A stretch of DNA of 40,305 bases, taken from contig DASXUJ010000081.1 of the NCBI GenBank assembly GCA_036504895.1, positions 1 through 40,305 on the forward strand, in the 5' to 3' direction. The DNA comes from Syntrophorhabdaceae bacterium. Its GTDB lineage: Bacteria > Desulfobacterota > Syntrophorhabdia > Syntrophorhabdales > Syntrophorhabdaceae. Below are positions 6,910-38,728 of the stretch, piece by piece. A program made the translations under genes and the position numbers. The notes under the pieces are model-generated. The model saw only the letters and a list, made by a program, of their open reading frames with translations, had not been told where the DNA came from and did no database searches. Position 1 is the first letter of the stretch, and each line of letters opens with the position of its first letter.

Positions 6910-8631
6910 CTACTGATTCATCTTGTTCATGATGCTCGCTTGCTGGGTGAGCCAGCTTTTCGTGCTGTTACTCGTGTTTATAAGCTGTTCCAATGCGTTG
7001 AACCTCGCCTCCATCACTACCCTCTCCCTCTCATACCGGGCTTCCAGGTCGGAAATGCGAGTATCGATGCCATCCATCTCGCTCTGGAGAGTTTTGGTGA
7101 GTGCCACGAGTGTTCCCGATGCGGGATCGACGTAGCCGTTGAGGCTGGTATAGAGTTTATCGCTCAGGTTCTTGAGGACCCCTGTGGTCTCTTCGCTGTT
7201 TGTCGACATGGCGCTGGAGAGTTTGTCCGTATCCACACTGAGGGTGCCATTCTTTGCATAGGTGATGCCTATGGAGGAGGCATTGGTGAAAGTGGAATTT
7301 CCGGTCACGGTGGAGAATACGGCATTCGAGATATTCCTCTTCACCTGAGCGAGGGTGCTATCCCCGAACAAGGGGTTTTGATCTGAGGCGCCGGCGCTAT
7401 CGGAGTTCTTGAACGTATTTTGGCTGCTGATATGAGAGATCACATTATTGATGGCCGATACCAGGGTAGATGCATTGGTTGAGATCTGGGATGTATTCTG
7501 GGTAATGGCCAGCTCTACCGGTTTCCCCTCGTTTGTGCCCGTAAGGTTGAGGGTCACCCCCGTGATCGCACTCGTTACAGAGTTGGAGGAGGACGTCATG
7601 TCATAACCGTCGATGGAAAGCATGGCATCCTGACCGGTCCTTAAGGTAGTCGTCGAAACGGCTTTGACCACGCCGAGGGTTTCGAGAATATTATTGCTGT
7701 CCGTCAGGTCGGTCACTGCCGTGCCGGTAAGTTTCAACTGCTTTTTCGCCGTCCCGTTTACCGTCACGGTCTCGACCGAAGCGGTCACGCCCGCGGGAGC
7801 GGCCGCATTGATATTGTCGGCAATGTTCTGAAGCGAATCCGTGGCGAGATTGACGGCTACATCCGTGCCTTTTATGTTTATGGTACCGCTCTGGGCGGAA
7901 GAGAGGCCGAGAAGGCTTCCCACGGTGCCCGTGGAATTTGAATAGCTGTCGCTCAAGGCATCGGGGCCGGATGGATGGGCGAGTTGTGTCGTCGCCGTAT
8001 GGAGCTTCAGGGATTCAAGGAGGTCCGCTGAGCCGCCATTCTTGATCGATATGCCCGCTGAGCCCGTGTTGTTCGATTCAAGAGAAAGCCTGAATTCCGT
8101 GCCGGACACCTGGAGGACGGTAGCGGTCACGCCTGTATTGGAGTTATTTATTTTGGTGGCTACGTCCGTGAGCGTATAGTCCGTGCCCAGTGAGACTGCC
8201 TTGCCGTTGATAACCAGATCTCCCGAGAGGTTGAGGGCATCCGTCTTGGAAGCGAAGGCGCCGCTCGAAATCTTCTCCGCCTTGGCGAGCTGGGAAACTT
8301 CAATCGAATATTTGCCGGCCCCGCTTACCGTGGTCCCCACGACGGCGCTCAAGATACTTGACGCGGTAATAGACGAATCAGTCGATGTAAGGGAGGGGCT
8401 GTAGACGTTGTATCCTTTCGCCTTATTGAGTTTGTTGCTGTCAATATAGTCCGTAAGGGCCGAGAGCTTGGTATTGAAGGCCTGCCACGCGGAAAGCTTT
8501 GCGGAGTACTTGTTTTTACTCTCCGTAAGAGGGTTTTCGGTTGCAGACTTTTCCGCATTGATGAGCGAGTCGATAAGGGCCGACCAGTTCGTGTTGCTCA
8601 CAAGTCCCGACATCGATACGGTTCCGGACAT
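6910..8631 (-). CDS. fliD: Flagellar filament cap protein FliD
   Basis: 573 residues. FliD forms the pentameric cap at the filament tip that folds flagellin subunits into place; it is exported by the flagellar type III system and has no signal peptide. The N-terminal SMSGLVSNTNWSALIDSLINAEK and the C-terminal coiled-coil region (TRISDLEARYERERVVMEARFNALEQLI...) match FliD_N and FliD_C. It is longer than many FliD proteins (about 450-480) because of a central insertion: residues ~218-323 form a flagellin-IN-like module also found in FlgK of this window. AGGAGG stands upstream of the ATG at 8631. It follows flaG by two bases. Confidence 0.94.
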   Translation of the reverse strand: MSGTVSMSGLVSNTNWSALIDSLINAEKSATENPLTESKNKYSAKLSAWQAFNTKLSALTDYIDSNKLNKAKGYNVYSPSLTSTDSSITASSILSAVVGTTVSGAGKYSIEVSQLAKAEKISSGAFASKTDALNLSGDLVINGKAVSLGTDYTLTDVATKINNSNTGVTATVLQVSGTEFRLSLESNNTGSAGISIKNGGSADLLESLKLHTATTQLAHPSGPDALSDSYSNSTGTVGSLLGLSSAQSGTINIKGTDVAVNLATDSLQNIADNINAAAPAGVTASVETVTVNGTAKKQLKLTGTAVTDLTDSNNILETLGVVKAVSTTTLRTGQDAMLSIDGYDMTSSSNSVTSAITGVTLNLTGTNEGKPVELAITQNTSQISTNASTLVSAINNVISHISSQNTFKNSDSAGASDQNPLFGDSTLAQVKRNISNAVFSTVTGNSTFTNASSIGITYAKNGTLSVDTDKLSSAMSTNSEETTGVLKNLSDKLYTSLNGYVDPASGTLVALTKTLQSEMDGIDTRISDLEARYERERVVMEARFNALEQLINTSNSTKSWLTQQASIMNKMNQ

Positions 8632-27532: not shown

Positions 27533-28054
27533 ATGAGCGTACCGGGTATCATCGAAACGAGACAGTACCTCACCTTCAACCTGGGTGATGAATCCTTTGC
27601 CCTCGATGTGGCGAATGTGAGGGAGATCCTCGAGTTTACCAGCGTCACCAAGGTGCCCCAGACACCCGAATTTATGAGGGGAGTGATAAACCTGAGGGGC
27701 AGCGTGGTGCCGGTAATGGATATGCGCGTGAAATTCAATCTCGCCGTGGGGGAAAAGACCGTCCACACCTGCATCATAGTGGTGGAAGTCACTATCGGCG
27801 AGGAGACGACCGTTCTCGGGGCCCTCGTCGATTCCGTACAGGAAGTGTTCGAGCTGGAGCCAGGCCAGATAGAGCCCGCCCCGAAAATAGGCACGGGACT
27901 CAAGACGGATTTTATCAAAGGCATGGGTAAGCGTGACGACCGGTTCATCATCATCCTCGACATCGACCGCCTTTTCTCCGAAGAGGAGCTGCTGATGACC
28001 GACGCTATAGGAGAAAAAACCGCCGAGGAGCGAAGCGAAGCGGTGAACCAGTAG
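27533..28054 (+). CDS. cheW: Chemotaxis coupling protein CheW (second copy)
   Basis: 173 residues. YLTFNLGDESFALDVANVREILEF, GVINLRGSVVPVMDMRVKFNL and LGALVDSVQEVFELEPGQIEPAP are CheW signatures. It is clearly distinct from the other CheW in the window (different C-terminal tail of ~20 residues rich in Glu). AGGAGG six bases before the ATG at 27533 decides the start. It follows the MCP remnant and precedes a repeat island and cheR-cheD-cheB. Confidence 0.95.
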   Translation: MSVPGIIETRQYLTFNLGDESFALDVANVREILEFTSVTKVPQTPEFMRGVINLRGSVVPVMDMRVKFNLAVGEKTVHTCIIVVEVTIGEETTVLGALVDSVQEVFELEPGQIEPAPKIGTGLKTDFIKGMGKRDDRFIIILDIDRLFSEEELLMTDAIGEKTAEERSEAVNQ

Positions 28055-28062
28055 AAGCGAGT

Positions 28063-28127
28063 GATGCGTTCATGTGTGTGAAGCGTATGATGCGTTGGGG
28101 CGTGTGAAGCGTGTACGCGTAATGCGT
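28063..28127. repeat. Degenerate GCGT-centred short repeats
   Basis: Two 26-base units start with GATGCGTT (28063 and 28089) and contain TGTGAAGCGT. Over 28066-28127 the word GCGT occurs seven times, the last six at spacings of 7-9 bases. No coding frame of note. Similar AAAAGCGT words recur at 32581-32605 and 32742-32749. Confidence 0.6.
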
Positions 28128-28151
28128 GTGTCACTTTTCAATAGCTGTAAA

Positions 28152-28303
28152 GCCTGCGACACGCAAGAACATTTATGCGTGATCGAGAATGAACTACAAA
28201 GGAGAAATTTCCCCGCGCGTGTAGCTCGCACCGCGACCGCGACCAACAGTGGGCGCTTTAAGCGGGGGAGGCTCAGTCGGCTTTTGCCGGCTGAGGGGGC
28301 GAC
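28152..28303. repeat. Tandem repeat, copy 1
   Basis: First copy of an imperfect direct repeat whose second copy is 28319-28447. Both begin GC(C/A)TGCGA(C/T)ACGC, continue with AACATTTA, AGGAGAA and CCCGCGCGTGTAGCTCGCACCGCGA, in that order, and end in an identical 40-base block (28264-28303). That block contains the hairpin CTCAGTCGGC-TTTT-GCCGGCTGAG (one T-G wobble). This copy carries about 21 extra bases after the CCGCGA word. Confidence 0.75.
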
Positions 28304-28318
28304 ACCAGTTAAAAGTGA

Positions 28319-28447
28319 GCATGCGATACGCGGTAACATTTACGTGTGGCGCAGAACGAACGAGAGGAGAATCTATCCCGCGCGTGTAGCTCGCACCGCG
28401 AGCGCGAGGGGGAGGCTCAGTCGGCTTTTGCCGGCTGAGGGGGCGAC
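28319..28447. repeat. Tandem repeat, copy 2
   Basis: Second copy, offset by 167 bases from the first at its left end. The 40-base terminal block (28408-28447) is identical to that of copy 1. Together the copies fill most of the 451-base gap between cheW and cheR; they show no terminal inverted repeats or open frame that would mark an insertion sequence. Confidence 0.75.
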
Positions 28448-28455
28448 GTGAGCCC

Positions 28456-28486
28456 CTATTATAGTGCGAGTGAGTCCCTATAATAG
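28456..28486. repeat. Inverted repeat upstream of cheR
   Basis: CTATTATAG (28456-28464) and CTATAATAG (28478-28486) are exact inverted complements, 13 bases apart, 20 bases before the first possible cheR start. CTATAATAG also contains a perfect TATAAT, so the dyad could combine a -10 box and an operator; no matching -35 box is evident. Confidence 0.45.
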
Positions 28487-28505
28487 CAGGACACAGTCCC
28501 TTTAA

Positions 28506-29381
28506 ATGACCATGGAACGAGCTCGAACCGCCCCTCCGGGCACAGTCGTGATGACTTCTCGGGATTTTTCCCGTCTGGCCAGGTTTATCCATGGGGAGTG
28601 CGGCATCAAGGTTACGGATGCCAAGAAGCCGATGCTTGAGGCCCGGCTGCAGAAAAGGTTGAGAAAGCTGGGATTGAACTCTTTCTCCCGCTATTGTGAC
28701 TACCTCTTCAGCCCCCGGGGCATGGAGGAAGAGCTCTCATTCATGATCAACGAAGTGAGCACGAATAAGACCGATTTTTTCCGGGAGCCGAACCATTTTC
28801 ATATCCTCGTCGAATCGGTTTTGCCGTCACTTATGAGTACCAGGGGATCGGGCACTCGAAAGAGGCTTACCGTGTGGAGCGCAGGGTGCTCGAGCGGTGA
28901 GGAGCCTTATACCCTCGCCATGGTGCTCAAGGATTTCGCAGAGCGCCTTGAAGGATCCGGCTTCGCCTTCCTCATTCTCGCCACCGATATCTCGACGAGC
29001 GTCTTGAAGAAAGCGGAGGACGCGGTCTACAATGAGGAGCGGGTCGCTCCTATTCCGTATGAGATGAAAAGGAAGTACCTGCTGAGAAGCAGGGACAAAT
29101 CGAAGCAGGAGTACCGCGTGGCGCCGGAGCTCCGTTCTCTCGTCAGGTTCCGGAGGCTCAACTTCATGGACAACAATTTTGGCTTTAGAGAGCAGGTCGA
29201 TATAATTTTTTGCAGAAACGTCATTATCTATTTCGATAAACCGACTCAGGAAAAACTGCTTACCCAATTCTGCCGCATTCTCTCACCCGGGGGCTTTATC
29301 TTTATGGGCCATTCGGAGACCCTTTTCGGCATGGATGTACCTCTTGTGTCCGTGGCTCCCACAGTATATAAGAAAATATGA
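28506..29381 (+). CDS. cheR: Chemotaxis protein methyltransferase CheR
   Basis: Up to 291 residues. CheR adds methyl groups from S-adenosylmethionine to receptor glutamates. N-terminal helical domain (FSRLARFIHGECGI...), the family motif NEVSTNKTDFFREPNHF at ~82-98, and the SAM-binding loop VWSAGCSSGEEPYTLAM at ~123-139; IIFCRNVIIYFDK is also typical. The start is unsure: ATG at 28506 or 28551 (the second places MTSRDF at the conserved beginning); neither has a clear ribosome site. Its stop overlaps cheD (ATGA). Confidence 0.95.
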   Translation: MTMERARTAPPGTVVMTSRDFSRLARFIHGECGIKVTDAKKPMLEARLQKRLRKLGLNSFSRYCDYLFSPRGMEEELSFMINEVSTNKTDFFREPNHFHILVESVLPSLMSTRGSGTRKRLTVWSAGCSSGEEPYTLAMVLKDFAERLEGSGFAFLILATDISTSVLKKAEDAVYNEERVAPIPYEMKRKYLLRSRDKSKQEYRVAPELRSLVRFRRLNFMDNNFGFREQVDIIFCRNVIIYFDKPTQEKLLTQFCRILSPGGFIFMGHSETLFGMDVPLVSVAPTVYKKI

Positions 29382-32935: not shown

Positions 32936-35566
32936 ATGGGGACGTGGCATGACTACGATCTGATCGTTATCGGCGCCGGTATCGGCGGCTTCGTTTCTGC
33001 GGTGACGGCAAACAGCCTCGGGAAGCATGTGGCGGTGGTCGAGAAGCGAAGGACCGGCGGTAACTGCACCAACTTCACGTGCATACCCAGCAAAGCCCTC
33101 ATCCGCTTGAGCCACTTGAGCCGGGAAACGGCCTCTCTCGATCGCCTCGGACTTCGGGTGAAGTGCCCGGGTGGTATCGACACCGAAGGAGTCATGGCAC
33201 GAATCCGGTCCGTCGTTCAGAAGGCGTACGAGAAAGACCTCCCGGATACGTTTGAGCGGATAGGCATCCATATGCTCTCGGGGACGGCAGCGTTTGCCGA
33301 CAACCATCACATCGAAGTGGACGGACGGGTCCTTTCTGCAGAAAAGTTCATTATCGCCGTTGGCACCCGTCCCCTGGTTCCTCCCATCGACGGTCTCGCG
33401 GGCATCGATTATCTGACGAACGAGACCCTCTATGAGCTTGACTCCCTGCCCGGCTCGCTCGTGATCCTCGGCGGCGGTGTCGATGGGATCGAGTACGCGT
33501 CGGCCTTCGGACGGCTCGGTGTAACGACTACCGTAGTGGAAATGGCGACCCGTCTTATACCCACGGCAGACAGGGAGATAACGACCCATCTGCTGCGCGC
33601 GTTGCGAGCTGACGGGATCAACCTGATTACCGGCGCGAAAGCGAAGAGTCTTTCAAGGGAAGAGGACGGCGTGGCGCTCATGTACGAGGACGAAAGGGGG
33701 CAACCAGGAAAGGTCCTGGCAGACCGGGTGCTCGTGGCGATCGGAAGAAAACCCGACCTGGAGGGATTGTCTCTTGAGAAGGCGGGGGTGAAATATACCG
33801 CCAGAGGGATCATCGCGGATGACAAGCTCCGGACTTCCGCTCCGAACATATATGGCTGCGGCGACATTGTCGGTCCCTTTCAACTGGCGTCCACGGCGGA
33901 GTACCATGGTATGATCGCCGCGACGAATGCGATGCTTCCTATTAAGCGGCGCGTCGATTACCACAACAACGTGTATGTCATATTCACGGACCCTCCGCTG
34001 GCATACCTTGGCCTTACGGAAGAGGAAGCCCACGCAAAATACGGACATGAGCTACAGGTATACAGGTTCGACTACACGAATATGCGCCGCGCCCTGGTAG
34101 ACGGGGAAGAGGTAGGAATGGCCAAGTTCCTTTGCGATGGCCGGGGACGGCTCGTGGGCGCCCACATCCTCGGTGAAGCCGCGAGCGAGGTCATCCACGA
34201 GGCACAGGTGATTAAGGCCATGCATCGACCCTTACACAAGCTGCATAACGTGACCCATGCGTACCCGACTTATGCTCAAGCCCTTGTGGGCCGGGCGAGT
34301 CAACTGGCCTACCTTGACAGGATGGCGGGCAACGTCTTTGTAAGGACGGTCCTCCGGCTGCTGCCCGGGTATGCCAACCGGTTGAATCTTGCGAGGGACC
34401 GATTGGCCGAGACGCCTCCCATGCCGTCGGACGGGAAACCGGCGACGTCCCATCCTGTTATCGGTATCAAAACTGTTGCGGATGGCAAGGTATGGGTCGT
34501 ATCTTTGCCGGTTGAGCTATTGGATCATGGGGAAGAATCCTTACTCGCGTCCCTGGGCAAGGATTCGAAGGGGCCCGAATCGATCGCGCTGGACTGGTCT
34601 CAGGTCCGGCGAATGAACGGGTTGGGGGCCGGCATGCTCGTGAAGGTCATTGCCCGTGCCAGGCGGAAGGGGCAGCGCCTGGTCGCGTTCGGGTTGGCAG
34701 AAGGCCTTAAGGATGTCCTCGAGGTGACGGAACTGGATCAGGCCATCGAGGTCTTTCCAAGCGAGTTCGGTGCCCTTTCGGCCCTCGGTGTTGATTTCCA
34801 GGGAACTCCGCCTGAGGAGCCGTTTCACGCGGGCATCACGGTGGACACGCACTACTGGGCAAAACCCACGGACTCGCTGATCGTTCCCTTAGCGCTGAAA
34901 AAGGCGCGGAACCTCAACGTAAATGGTCGCCGCCCTGTGGGTCCGGTCAATGGTTTCGGCCAATTGTGGCAAAAAACCTATTGGCTCCATGTGAGCGATC
35001 CCGAGATCACCCCTGAGTACGCTATCGCATGCCTCAAGCACAACTTTCCCGGCTTCCAGCCGTCATACAACCATTTTTTTCCGTCCCCGGCGGGTATCGT
35101 GGCAGGCGAGATCGTCCTCCTTCACTCATCTACGCCGGGAGGACCGCTTTCCACGGGAGTAATGGTGCTCTATGCCGACGACAGGTCGTTCACGTTCTGC
35201 TGCCCGAAGGGACATCCGGAATCCGGGTTTGTGTCGTTCAGCGCCTTCGAGGCGGAGGGGAAGACCATAGTGCAAATAATGGGCCTGGCGCGCGCCAGTG
35301 ACCCGATCTATGAAATTGCGTTTCACCTTGTCGGGTCGAAAATCCAGGCGAGGATATGGGCCCACGTGCTCGCGTCACTGGCCGCCTATCTTGGAGTACC
35401 GGCCTCGATCGCTTCCGAGACCATTTGCGTGGATCACTCGAGACAATGGCGGCAGTTCGGGAACGTCTGGTACAACGCCCAGGTCAGGACGTTGGCGCAC
35501 GAGCCTGTGCGGTGGCTCGGAGCTTTAGTGGGAGGTGTCCGTGAAGCGCAGGTCCGTTCAGTCTGA
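32936..35566 (+). CDS. FAD disulfide-oxidoreductase-like protein fused to STAS and DUF1990-like domains
   Basis: 876 residues in three parts. Residues 1-~470 are a dihydrolipoamide dehydrogenase/mercuric reductase-type flavoprotein: GAGIGG (13-18), redox Cys44 and Cys49 (GGNCTNFTCIPSKAL), a second nucleotide motif GGGVDGIEYA, and YGCGDIVG. The C-terminal catalytic His-Glu pair is altered (THAYPTYAQAL: Tyr and Gln instead), as partly in MerA. Residues ~505-613 resemble a STAS domain, but the phosphorylatable Ser is missing (RRMNGLGAGML). Residues ~625-876 resemble DUF1990 (FCCPKGHPESGFVSF). I know no named protein with this order; the substrate is unknown. It overlaps the next gene by 26 bases. 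Confidence 0.75.
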   Translation: MGTWHDYDLIVIGAGIGGFVSAVTANSLGKHVAVVEKRRTGGNCTNFTCIPSKALIRLSHLSRETASLDRLGLRVKCPGGIDTEGVMARIRSVVQKAYEKDLPDTFERIGIHMLSGTAAFADNHHIEVDGRVLSAEKFIIAVGTRPLVPPIDGLAGIDYLTNETLYELDSLPGSLVILGGGVDGIEYASAFGRLGVTTTVVEMATRLIPTADREITTHLLRALRADGINLITGAKAKSLSREEDGVALMYEDERGQPGKVLADRVLVAIGRKPDLEGLSLEKAGVKYTARGIIADDKLRTSAPNIYGCGDIVGPFQLASTAEYHGMIAATNAMLPIKRRVDYHNNVYVIFTDPPLAYLGLTEEEAHAKYGHELQVYRFDYTNMRRALVDGEEVGMAKFLCDGRGRLVGAHILGEAASEVIHEAQVIKAMHRPLHKLHNVTHAYPTYAQALVGRASQLAYLDRMAGNVFVRTVLRLLPGYANRLNLARDRLAETPPMPSDGKPATSHPVIGIKTVADGKVWVVSLPVELLDHGEESLLASLGKDSKGPESIALDWSQVRRMNGLGAGMLVKVIARARRKGQRLVAFGLAEGLKDVLEVTELDQAIEVFPSEFGALSALGVDFQGTPPEEPFHAGITVDTHYWAKPTDSLIVPLALKKARNLNVNGRRPVGPVNGFGQLWQKTYWLHVSDPEITPEYAIACLKHNFPGFQPSYNHFFPSPAGIVAGEIVLLHSSTPGGPLSTGVMVLYADDRSFTFCCPKGHPESGFVSFSAFEAEGKTIVQIMGLARASDPIYEIAFHLVGSKIQARIWAHVLASLAAYLGVPASIASETICVDHSRQWRQFGNVWYNAQVRTLAHEPVRWLGALVGGVREAQVRSV

Positions 35567-37007
35567 CCGTGAATACGATGCCGTTGTGGTCGGCTCCGGG
35601 CCCAATGGTCTCGCCGCGGCGGTGACCATCGCGCAGGCAGGGCGGTCCGTATTGCTTATCGAAGCCAAAGAGACCATCGGCGGCGGGACGCGCACTCAGG
35701 AGCTCACCCTTCCCGGGTTCCACCACGACGTCTGCGCGGCAATACATCCTCTGGCGCTCGCCTCCCCGTTCTTCCGTTTCCTGGATCTTTCCTCTCGTGG
35801 CCTCGAGTGGATTCAGCCGCCCATCCCCCTCGCCCACCCGCTGGATGACGATCACGCCGTATTATTGGAGCGTTCATTGGACAAGACGGCGGAAGGCCTC
35901 GGCCCTGATGCCGGCCCCTATCGCCAACTCTTTGGCCCCATGGTCGGAAAGTGGGACGAACTTGTGGCCGATCTGTTAAGACCGCTTGGTCCTCCGCGCC
36001 ATCCCCTCTCACTCATGCATTTTGCGCCCCGCGCCGTGCGGTCTGCAACGGCCCTCGGCGAAAGATGGTTTAAGGGCGTGAGGGCCCGAGCCCTCTTTGC
36101 GGGGAACGCGGCTCATTCGGTTCTGCCCTTGCAACATCTGTCGAGCGCCGCCTTCGGGCTTATGCTCGGCATATTGGGCCATGCAGTCGGGTGGCCGATC
36201 GCGAAGGGAGGCTCAAGGGCTATCGCAGATGCTCTCGCTTCCTGCTTCACCTCTCTTGGCGGCGTAATCAGAACCGGGATGCCCGTTTCATCTCTCGATG
36301 ATCTGCCAAAGGCAGGCGCTCTACTGTTCGACATTGCCCCTGAGCGCCTTGCCGGCATCGCCGGGGAGCGTTTCCCTGTCGGCTATCGCGACCGTCTGAA
36401 GTCGCAGCGCCATGGGCCCGGGGTCTTCAAGGTGGACTGGGCCCTCAAGGGACCCATACCATGGAGGGACCCGAATTGCGCGCGGGCAGGCACGCTTCAC
36501 GTGGGAGGCGGCCCGAAGGAGATCGCGCAGGCAGAGCAGGATGTCTGGCGAGGAGTGCCTGCCGGGAAACCATTCGTCCTTCTGACGCAGCCCAGTCTCT
36601 TCGATCCGGGCCGGGCGCCTGCCGGCACGCATACCGCCTGGGCGTACTGTCACGTTCCCAATGGGTGCAAGGTCGATATGACGGAACGGATTGAGGCCCA
36701 GATAGAACGATTCGCCCCGGGTTTTCATGATATGATTATAGCGAAGCACATCATGTCGCCGGCCGATATGGAGGAGTATAATCCGAACTATATCGGGGGA
36801 GAAATAGTCGGGGGCGTGCAGGATTTTTGGCAGCTTTTTGTGCGGCCCTTCGGGAGATGGAGGGCCTATTCAACGCCGGCCGAAGGCATCTACATCTGTT
36901 CGGCCTCGATGCCTCCGGGCGCCGGTGTCCACGGGATGTGCGGCTACCTCGCCGCAATAAGGGCGCTCGGTGATGTCCTTGGCTTCAGTCCCGGCCGGCC
37001 TCATTAA
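35541..37007 (+). CDS. Phytoene-dehydrogenase-like FAD oxidoreductase
   Basis: 488 residues. The FAD motif GSGPNGLAAAVTIAQAGRSVLLIEAKETIGGGTRT near residues 18-52 and the C-terminal FAD-contacting stretch STPAEGIYICSASMPPGAGVHGMCGYLAA are those of the carotenoid desaturase/CrtI-like family. I place the start at GTG 35541 because GGAGG is five bases upstream; the frame opens six bases earlier. It overlaps the end of the FAD-STAS fusion gene by 26 bases and the YbgA-like gene starts 10 bases after its stop, so the three form an operon. No phytoene synthase is nearby, so a carotenoid substrate is not established. Confidence 0.85.
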   Translation: MKRRSVQSDREYDAVVVGSGPNGLAAAVTIAQAGRSVLLIEAKETIGGGTRTQELTLPGFHHDVCAAIHPLALASPFFRFLDLSSRGLEWIQPPIPLAHPLDDDHAVLLERSLDKTAEGLGPDAGPYRQLFGPMVGKWDELVADLLRPLGPPRHPLSLMHFAPRAVRSATALGERWFKGVRARALFAGNAAHSVLPLQHLSSAAFGLMLGILGHAVGWPIAKGGSRAIADALASCFTSLGGVIRTGMPVSSLDDLPKAGALLFDIAPERLAGIAGERFPVGYRDRLKSQRHGPGVFKVDWALKGPIPWRDPNCARAGTLHVGGGPKEIAQAEQDVWRGVPAGKPFVLLTQPSLFDPGRAPAGTHTAWAYCHVPNGCKVDMTERIEAQIERFAPGFHDMIIAKHIMSPADMEEYNPNYIGGEIVGGVQDFWQLFVRPFGRWRAYSTPAEGIYICSASMPPGAGVHGMCGYLAAIRALGDVLGFSPGRPH

Positions 37008-37017
37008 GGGGATAGTC

Positions 37018-37965
37018 ATGGAAAAAATCAAGATAGGGATCAGCACGTGTCTTTTGGGAGAGAAGGTCCGCTATGACGGGGGCCACAAGCTTGACAGGTA
37101 CATTACGGAAACGCTCGGTCAGTACTTCGATTACGTTCCCGTCTGTCCGGAAGTCGAATACGGCCTTCCTATCCCAAGGGAGGCCCTGCGCCTTGTGGGA
37201 GATCCGGTCTCACCCCGCCTCGTTACGGTCCGTACCCGTGTAGATCATACCAATGGTATGCTCGGTTGGGCAGAGCGGAAGTTGGGTGAATTGGAGGGCG
37301 AAGAACTTTGCGGCTTCATCTTCAAAAGTCGGTCCCCCAGCTCCGGCCTGAAGGGGGTAAAGGTGTATACGGACTCAGGGATGCCGAGCCACAGTGGGGC
37401 AGGTATCTTTGCCGCCGCATTTACCCGGCGGAATCCCCTGATCCCCGTCACGGACGATGGCAGGCTCCACGATCCATCCCTGAGGGAAACGTTCATCGAT
37501 GCGGTATTTGTGTACGCGCGCTGGCAGGACTTGCGTAAGAAAGGTGGAAAGATCAAAGACCTGATCGATTTTCATACAGACATGAAGCTCCTCATCCTGG
37601 CCCACAGCCCCAAGCACTACGGCATGCTGGGGCGACTGGTCGCCGGGGCAGGCGAGTACGAGCCCGAGGAACTCCGGATGTCGTACGTCAATCTTCTTAT
37701 GGAATCGCTCCGCCTCGAGGCTACCCCCCGAAAGAATACCAATGTGCTCCTCCATGGAATGGGCTATTTCAAGAAGCAGCTTACTTCCGATGAAAAGGCG
37801 GAACTGCTTGAGATCATCGGGGCCTATCACGATGGGTATGTCCCCCTCATCGTGCCGATCACTCTCATGAACCACTACGCCCGCAAATACGGGGAGCTCT
37901 ACTTAAAACGGCAGTACTACTTCAATCCCTACCCTGTCGAGCTCATGTTAAGAAACCATGCGTAG
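37018..37965 (+). CDS. DUF523 and DUF1722 (YbgA-type) protein
   Basis: 315 residues. The N-terminal DUF523 part has ISTCLLGEKVRYDGGHK, VCPEVEYGLPIPREALRL and FKSRSPSSGLKGVKVY, including conserved cysteines; the C-terminal DUF1722 part has LLILAHSPKHYGMLGRLVAG and the basic/aromatic end YARKYGELYLKRQYYFNPYP. The biochemical function is not established; in several bacteria the gene is next to photolyase genes and is induced by light. AGGGGA before the ATG at 37018 decides the start, although the frame extends further upstream. Confidence 0.9.
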   Translation: MEKIKIGISTCLLGEKVRYDGGHKLDRYITETLGQYFDYVPVCPEVEYGLPIPREALRLVGDPVSPRLVTVRTRVDHTNGMLGWAERKLGELEGEELCGFIFKSRSPSSGLKGVKVYTDSGMPSHSGAGIFAAAFTRRNPLIPVTDDGRLHDPSLRETFIDAVFVYARWQDLRKKGGKIKDLIDFHTDMKLLILAHSPKHYGMLGRLVAGAGEYEPEELRMSYVNLLMESLRLEATPRKNTNVLLHGMGYFKKQLTSDEKAELLEIIGAYHDGYVPLIVPITLMNHYARKYGELYLKRQYYFNPYPVELMLRNHA

Positions 37966-38061
37966 CTGCCACAAGGCTTCGGGCATCCTTATAACTTGAA
38001 CGAATGCTACTTCTTCTTTGCCGGGAGGATCGCGCGGAAGACGCTGCAGATAATCGCGACG

Positions 38062-38580
38062 CTATTGGTCCTGATTGACATATATCAGTTTGCCGGTGTC
38101 AAAGCCCAATGCGGTTGCTTTTGCGATGACCGCCTCCTTTATGCTTTCCTTTATTTGCGGACTTCTGGCCAGAAGCCATAAGTATGATTTGTCGGGGCCG
38201 CATACAAGTGAATACTGATAGTTTTCATGGTCAAGTTCAAATACGACATATGCGCCGTAAAAGGGGCCAAAGAAAGAAACCTTCAGGTAACCTTGATCTG
38301 GTCCTCCGACAAAATAGGCCTTGCCTTCTGCCTCCTTCCACTTGTTTTGTTTTACGGAATACCCGCGATTTATCACTCTCACCCCGCCATCGTTCCGAAG
38401 GCTGTAATCTGCAGTTACCCGAGTTAAACCTCTCTCGAAAGAGTGGTCCAGTCGCGCAATCTCGTACCACTTTCCAAGATATCTTTCCAAGTTGAAATTA
38501 TCAACCGGTCTTACATTCGCGGGTATTCCAACGCACCCCGGGAATAATAAAGCCGCCAGGAAAATAAACAATTTTTTCAT
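38062..38580 (-). CDS. blc: Bacterial lipocalin (Blc-type lipoprotein)
   Basis: 172 residues. A signal peptide (KKLFIFLAALLFPGC) ends at a likely lipidated Cys16; the lipocalin G-x-W motif is YLGKWYEIARLDHSFERGL, followed by VTADYSLRNDGGVRVINRGY and the closing WLLARSPQIKESI. Outer-membrane lipocalins bind lysophospholipids or other lipids and are stress-induced. I choose the ATG at 38580 for AAGGA upstream and a normal signal peptide; the frame opens earlier at 38637. Convergent with the YbgA-like gene. Confidence 0.9.
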   Translation of the reverse strand: MKKLFIFLAALLFPGCVGIPANVRPVDNFNLERYLGKWYEIARLDHSFERGLTRVTADYSLRNDGGVRVINRGYSVKQNKWKEAEGKAYFVGGPDQGYLKVSFFGPFYGAYVVFELDHENYQYSLVCGPDKSYLWLLARSPQIKESIKEAVIAKATALGFDTGKLIYVNQDQ

Positions 38581-38608
38581 TTCTGTTTTGTCCTTAAAAG
38601 CTAAGGAA

Positions 38609-38636
38609 AATATAATACAATCATTAGCGTTGTCCA
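38609..38636 (-). promoter_or_regulatory. Sigma-70 promoter of the lipocalin gene
   Basis: TGGACA-N16-TATATT on the minus strand, each box five of six to consensus, 28 bases before the chosen ATG. It also argues against the upstream alternative start, which would lie inside the promoter. Confidence 0.5.
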
Positions 38637-38728
38637 CTTCCGTCGCGTTTGATCCTCGTCAGATAAGGCCTCTTGCCCTCACAACTCTTGAGGATACACG
38701 ATAGGACATGGAAAGAGAGAAGTGGGTA

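Follow-up and report, generated by a model that had tools for sequence, protein, structure and literature searches.

A disulfide reductase-STAS-DUF1990-like fusion encoded beside a CrtO/PYROXD2-like flavoprotein gene in a Syntrophorhabdaceae bacterium: a candidate rewired partner-switching module

The window analysed here is a 40,305-nt stretch of DNA from a Syntrophorhabdaceae bacterium. On its plus strand, an open reading frame at 32936-35566 (876 codons, no internal stops) encodes an 876-aa fusion of a disulfide reductase, a STAS domain and a DUF1990-like domain, as defined by the reading frame, Pfam, AlphaFold and eight relatives. The full-length AlphaFold model had a pLDDT of 92.5 and a pTM of 0.87, with every domain modelled confidently within one chain. 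The sequence-only reading had proposed three domains of three families in this chain, and Pfam, the matches of the relatives and the model agreed on that point. Residues 505-876 were checked for a match to a single known family; two families (STAS and DUF1990) were found, which ruled out a single domain family for this part. Across 395 genomes of the phylum, both fused and unfused forms were found. A full-length homologue (63% identity) was present in a genome of another family of the same order (G039, whose contig is locus L065). The triple fusion recurred in eight loci besides the window (L064, L065, L066, L071, L072, L074, L075 and L137), with 51-62% identity over the chain. Because a full-length homologue and the same fusion recur in other genomes, the fusion is not an assembly artefact. 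The rival view that it arose by faulty assembly or annotation has eight further contigs against it and is virtually impossible. STAS and DUF1990 were also found as neighbouring separate genes in other loci. For the combination of the three domains in one chain, or for such a module, a search of open papers revealed no published description, in line with the earlier statement that the architecture matches no named protein.

The N-terminal part of the fusion (residues 7-451; 32954-34288, plus strand) is a class-I FAD/NAD disulfide reductase. Pfam matches to Pyr_redox_2 (residues 7-325, E 3e-55, 188.1 bits) and Pyr_redox_dim (residues 348-451, E 6e-24, 84.9 bits) were both above the curated cut-offs. 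The redox-active pair Cys44 and Cys49 (CTNFTC; 33065-33082, plus strand) had been noticed earlier, and alignment bore it out: the CxxxxC pair was present in each fusion readable at that site. The C-terminal His-Glu dyad (34256-34279, plus strand) had been described as missing, which was half right. His441, in HAYPTYAQ, was invariant, and the usual Glu partner was replaced by Gln448 across all fusions. Glu202 ends the second Rossmann motif, which suggests a preference of the reductase for NADH over NADPH. The solved structures nearest to the full-length model were MerA and lipoamide dehydrogenase (Z 43), in a fold search that was dominated by the reductase domain and is informative for this domain alone. 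The window protein shares the fold, the FAD and NAD motifs, Cys44/Cys49 and His441 with the mercuric reductase/dihydrolipoyl dehydrogenase family (PRK06370-like). It differs from that family in Gln448 and the long C-terminal fusion, and its scores were below all NCBIfam equivalog cut-offs shown (MerA, 356 bits vs 454; lipoamide_DH, 357 vs 409).

An unfused reductase paralogue, 43% identical, is encoded elsewhere in the window genome. In a reductase tree calculated without L072, whose N-terminus was masked, the fused reductases formed one clade (support 100/100) beside the type of this paralogue. Reductase genes also lie near four separate-gene operons (L101, L124, L125 and L134); they fell in a different clade, so that the fused reductase was judged not to derive from them.

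The STAS domain (residues 516-610; 34481-34765, plus strand) matched PF01740 with E 4.9e-7 and 29.9 bits (gathering score 22.6), and all 18 relatives matched it too. In the alignment with relatives, Gly562 (34619-34621, plus strand) takes the place of the phosphoserine used in partner switching, so that the site reads N-G-L-G instead of N-S-[ST]-G. Thus, the earlier description of a STAS-like domain without its phosphoserine was upheld. The switch serine was found in 56/56 stand-alone STAS proteins (N-S-x-G) from loci with a kinase/phosphatase gene, in 12/36 STAS-DUF1990 fusions and in 0/8 triple-fused relatives; these counts come from related loci in which the pattern, like the architecture, tracks phylogeny and do not amount to a test on independent samples. 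A SpoIIE/HATPase_c_2 gene of the operon type was absent from the triple-fusion loci, including the window, and was present in 29 others. Because 12 of the 36 two-part fusions keep the serine and HATPase_c_2 matches are numerous elsewhere in the window genome, remote phosphorylation of other module members is possible.

The third domain (34832-35473, plus strand; core residues 675-822) is a divergent DUF1990-like domain with a confidently predicted SRPBCC/START helix-grip fold. Residues 615-876 of the window protein by themselves gave no Pfam or NCBIfam match. Among relatives, 14/18 matched DUF1990 (PF09348), and the gathering score of 23 was exceeded by copies in the genomes of L124 (37.7 bits) and L106 (24.2 bits). 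Alignment with a clear DUF1990 protein by hhalign (E 3e-5, probability 73) paired the GHPE-G motif and the long last helix of both. The AlphaFold model of the domain alone had a pLDDT of 91. Its best helix-grip match was 5wox (Z 12.1, rmsd 2.9, 138 residues), many SRPBCC structures scored Z > 10, and Foldseek matched it to helix-grip proteins with E 9e-6. These findings support the original DUF1990-like, SRPBCC-type assignment. The window domain shares a homologous core with PF09348, from which it differs in being undetected alone, in its fusion to STAS and in its longer N- and C-terminal parts. A PDB sequence search with the C-terminal part of the protein revealed weak STAS matches and one chance-level match, and the domain was absent from the plasmids of PLSDB. 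Among the helix-grip proteins matched are ARO/CYC enzymes, hydroxynitrile lyase, and norcoclaurine and lachrymatory factor synthases. Six polar residues of the domain are invariant (N29, K48, H128, R154, D157 and Q172 in A3 numbering). Because SRPBCC folds include enzymes, the domain may be catalytic. Elsewhere, single ORFs of L113 (221-1942) and L134 (7182-8762) contain a tandem pair of DUF1990-like domains.

The next gene (35541-37007, plus strand; the start may be GTG 35535) encodes an FAD flavoprotein assigned from NCBIfam and conserved adjacency as CrtO-like; we take it to be PYROXD2-like as well. The likelier start is GTG 35541, 5 nt past a Shine-Dalgarno-like GGGAGG, which gives a 26-bp overlap with the fusion gene. 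The best NCBIfam matches were CrtO (E 2e-33, 115.6 bits vs cut-off 1000) and crtI_fam (E 6e-16, 58.2 bits vs cut-off 238). The neighbour thus shares the FAD fold of the amine-oxidase/CrtI superfamily with CrtO/PYROXD2-type flavoproteins; it scores far under both cut-offs, and its genome has no carotenoid precursor synthase. A PDB sequence search with it returned matches to the FAD motif alone. The flavoprotein gene was present in 69/80 loci, always on the same strand as the module, nearly always immediately downstream, and mostly overlapping it or less than 100 bp away; two of the 11 loci without it stop at a contig edge. The gene had been read as CrtI-like and coupled by overlap. Its adjacency is conserved; the overlap itself is not conserved across loci, and the scores are nearer CrtO than CrtI. 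The fusion and its neighbour may share one hydrophobic substrate. Downstream, at 36970-38637, a DUF523-DUF1722 gene overlaps the end of the flavoprotein gene and is followed by a convergent lipocalin gene; in L065, the pair is likewise followed by a related lipocalin gene (8022-8588, minus strand).

A scan of GTDB genomes yielded 127 loci, 80 of which were retained. They fell into three architecture classes. Separate STAS, STAS, DUF1990 and flavoprotein genes were found mainly in Chloroflexota outside Dehalococcoidia and in Rubrobacteraceae or other Actinomycetota. STAS-DUF1990 fusions without reductase occurred in Dehalococcoidia and many Deltaproteobacteria. The triple fusion was found in Deltaproteobacteria, including Desulfomonile and Syntrophaceae bins, and in one Dehalococcoidia bin (L072). 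Alternative phylum labels such as Myxococcota were set aside for bins named 'Deltaproteobacteria bacterium'. L098 (labelled Pleurocapsa) and L114 (labelled Gracilibacteria) nested within Chloroflexota and are probably mis-binned. The DUF1990-like and flavoprotein trees both grouped the window genes with other triple fusions and broadly agreed on the three-class division. In the DUF1990-like tree, five Dehalococcoidia genes without reductase nested among the triple fusions, a position that implies either a loss of the reductase or two gains. Because the trees were midpoint-rooted, the order of fusion versus splitting, and of gain versus loss, is an interpretation of them. STAS-DUF1990 appears to be the older fused unit, wider in distribution than the triple fusion, so that the junction would not be new, and evolution probably ran from separate genes through two-part to three-part fusions. 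In seven Deltaproteobacteria loci of the STAS-DUF1990 class (L077, L078, L085, L086, L088, L091 and L126), a PPDK_N/PEP-utiliser gene was observed, mostly just upstream. In L117 (1182-6019), from a Verrucomicrobiota bin, the STAS-DUF1990 gene is divergent from an mlaFEDC-like operon (Mla lipid transport), and a flavoprotein gene was not seen within 1.25 kb downstream. This placement beside an Mla operon was seen in one bin and is not general.

In the separate-gene operons of other Chloroflexota and Rubrobacteraceae, the gene order is SpoIIE-phosphatase/RsbW-type kinase, STAS, STAS, DUF1990 and CrtO/PYROXD2-like flavoprotein. The first gene (GAF-SpoIIE-HATPase_c_2) lies upstream of the STAS genes in 29 loci, and this SpoIIE-type gene matches SiaA weakly. 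These operons share STAS proteins with intact serine, a HATPase_c_2 kinase and a SpoIIE phosphatase with the SpoIIAA/SpoIIAB/SpoIIE and RsbV/RsbW/RsbU systems, from which they differ in having kinase and phosphatase in a single chain and in adding a DUF1990 protein and a flavoprotein. The window, in contrast to those systems, has neither switch gene nor serine, and its STAS domain is fused to DUF1990 and the reductase. The known outputs of STAS partner switching are mainly sigma factors, with a few others. A precedent for an enzyme as the target of a STAS-family partner, in place of a sigma factor, is the SiaC-SiaD pair (PMC8457831). For the module, we propose the logic of SiaABCD of Pseudomonas, in which the switch protein acts on an enzyme; the effector in SiaABCD, however, is a diguanylate cyclase, and that system has no flavoprotein or SRPBCC domain. 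Runs of related membrane-protein genes flank the SpoIIE-STAS-DUF1990 operons of L106 (10222-16480) and L124 (10430-15558), with relatives in 22 loci; they gave one weak HisKA_7TM score, and a kinase domain was absent in those tested.

The separate, two-part and three-part forms across the 80 loci make up a Rosetta-stone series, which ties STAS to DUF1990 as its partner and shows the flavoprotein constantly in their company. STAS and DUF1990 proteins are accordingly predicted to bind each other. The best explanation, to which we assign about an even chance, is that the fusion is a rewired partner-switching effector module, in which STAS is locked to its effector, the reductase is built in and a hydrophobic ligand is shared with the neighbouring flavoprotein. 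In the separate-gene form, the phosphatase/kinase fusion would switch the two small STAS proteins through serine phosphorylation, and these would act on the DUF1990/SRPBCC ligand-pocket protein and the flavoprotein of their own operon. In Dehalococcoidia and Deltaproteobacteria, STAS would have been joined to its target DUF1990; with no kinase/phosphatase gene at the locus and the serine mostly lost, it may now serve permanently for docking. The window's lineage would have added a MerA/lipoamide-dehydrogenase-type reductase in front of STAS-DUF1990. Electrons would pass from NADH through FAD to Cys44/Cys49 and on to the ligand or a partner, whose redox state the reductase would set. The DUF1990 pocket would hold the ligand, probably hydrophobic, and the neighbouring flavoprotein would dock on the STAS/DUF1990 half and oxidise or reduce it. 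Candidate ligands are a quinone, a polyprenoid or a membrane lipid.

The fusion may instead be a multidomain biosynthetic enzyme, with a catalytic SRPBCC domain, the flavoproteins as successive redox steps and STAS as a spacer. Enzymes among the helix-grip matches and the invariant polar residues are consistent with this, and catalysis of the cyclase/lyase type might then resemble that of aromatase/cyclases or hydroxynitrile lyase. Retention of STAS in nearly all lineages, with the switch serine beside a phosphatase/kinase gene, argues for regulation, and a biosynthetic cluster with recurrent tailoring genes was not found around the loci; we regard the biosynthetic reading as rather unlikely. 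About equally doubtful is a light/oxygen stress cassette against photo-oxidative or lipid damage, which would repair or modify damaged membrane lipids or quinones with electrons donated by the reductase. Near the module, a DNA photolyase is encoded in 6 loci, a DUF1365-CMAS lipid methyltransferase in 5, an amine-oxidase-like flavoprotein in 3 and PNPOx-like proteins in 12 plus the window, and in the window and L065 a lipocalin gene accompanies the pair. Photolyase and CFA synthase of Vibrio cholerae are induced by blue light (PMC5241685), which fits the repair reading. The photolyase, DUF1365-CMAS, amine-oxidase-like and PNPOx neighbours, however, were found mainly in two-part loci and show co-location only; those of the triple fusions were limited to lipocalin, DUF523-DUF1722 and PNPOx (window) or complex I-like genes (L064 and L074). 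In some two-part loci, the photolyase, DUF1365-CMAS and PNPOx neighbours hint at a light or oxygen stress link that is not general.

Carotenoid desaturation or ketolation by the neighbour, with the fusion carrying or reducing the carotenoid, is consistent with CrtO and the crtI family as the best NCBIfam matches of the neighbour. However, the scores are far below the curated cut-offs of both. Squalene/phytoene synthase (SQS_PSY) was absent from the window genome (G000, 100% complete) and from 3/4 other fusion genomes examined. Because the window genome has no such synthase, an endogenous carotenoid is an unlikely substrate or ligand, and the carotenoid reading as a whole is very improbable. 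A broader proposal, which we consider speculative and put well below the rewired effector module, is that partner switching acts directly on redox flavoenzymes through a ligand-sensing SRPBCC domain, which would make this a signalling class so far undescribed. A lipid or quinone would be sensed in the DUF1990 pocket, STAS would relay the signal and the flavoprotein would be the output, with the triple fusion as a kinase-free, redox-wired version. If this were true, the separate-gene operons, in which SRPBCC is paired with a PP2C-type phosphatase, would offer a bacterial parallel to the logic of the plant PYR/PYL-PP2C hormone receptors, by analogy and not by homology.

The loci combine STAS partner switching, an SRPBCC domain and a CrtO/PYROXD2-like flavoprotein in one conserved operon, spread through many uncultured Chloroflexota, Actinomycetota and Deltaproteobacteria, and point to an undescribed control of flavin enzymes by protein partner switching. 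The series of separate, two-part and three-part forms names likely binding partners and is a testable entry to DUF1990 and PYROXD2-type flavoproteins, both poorly understood. Human PYROXD2 belongs to this flavoprotein type; it is a disease gene, and little is known of what it does (PMC8777681).

Elsewhere in the window, the spacer between cheW and cheR (28040-28600) contains repeats: a 40-nt sequence occurs twice without mismatch, at 28264 and 28408, and the two members of a 43-nt pair are 88% identical. The ORFs of this spacer appear spurious.
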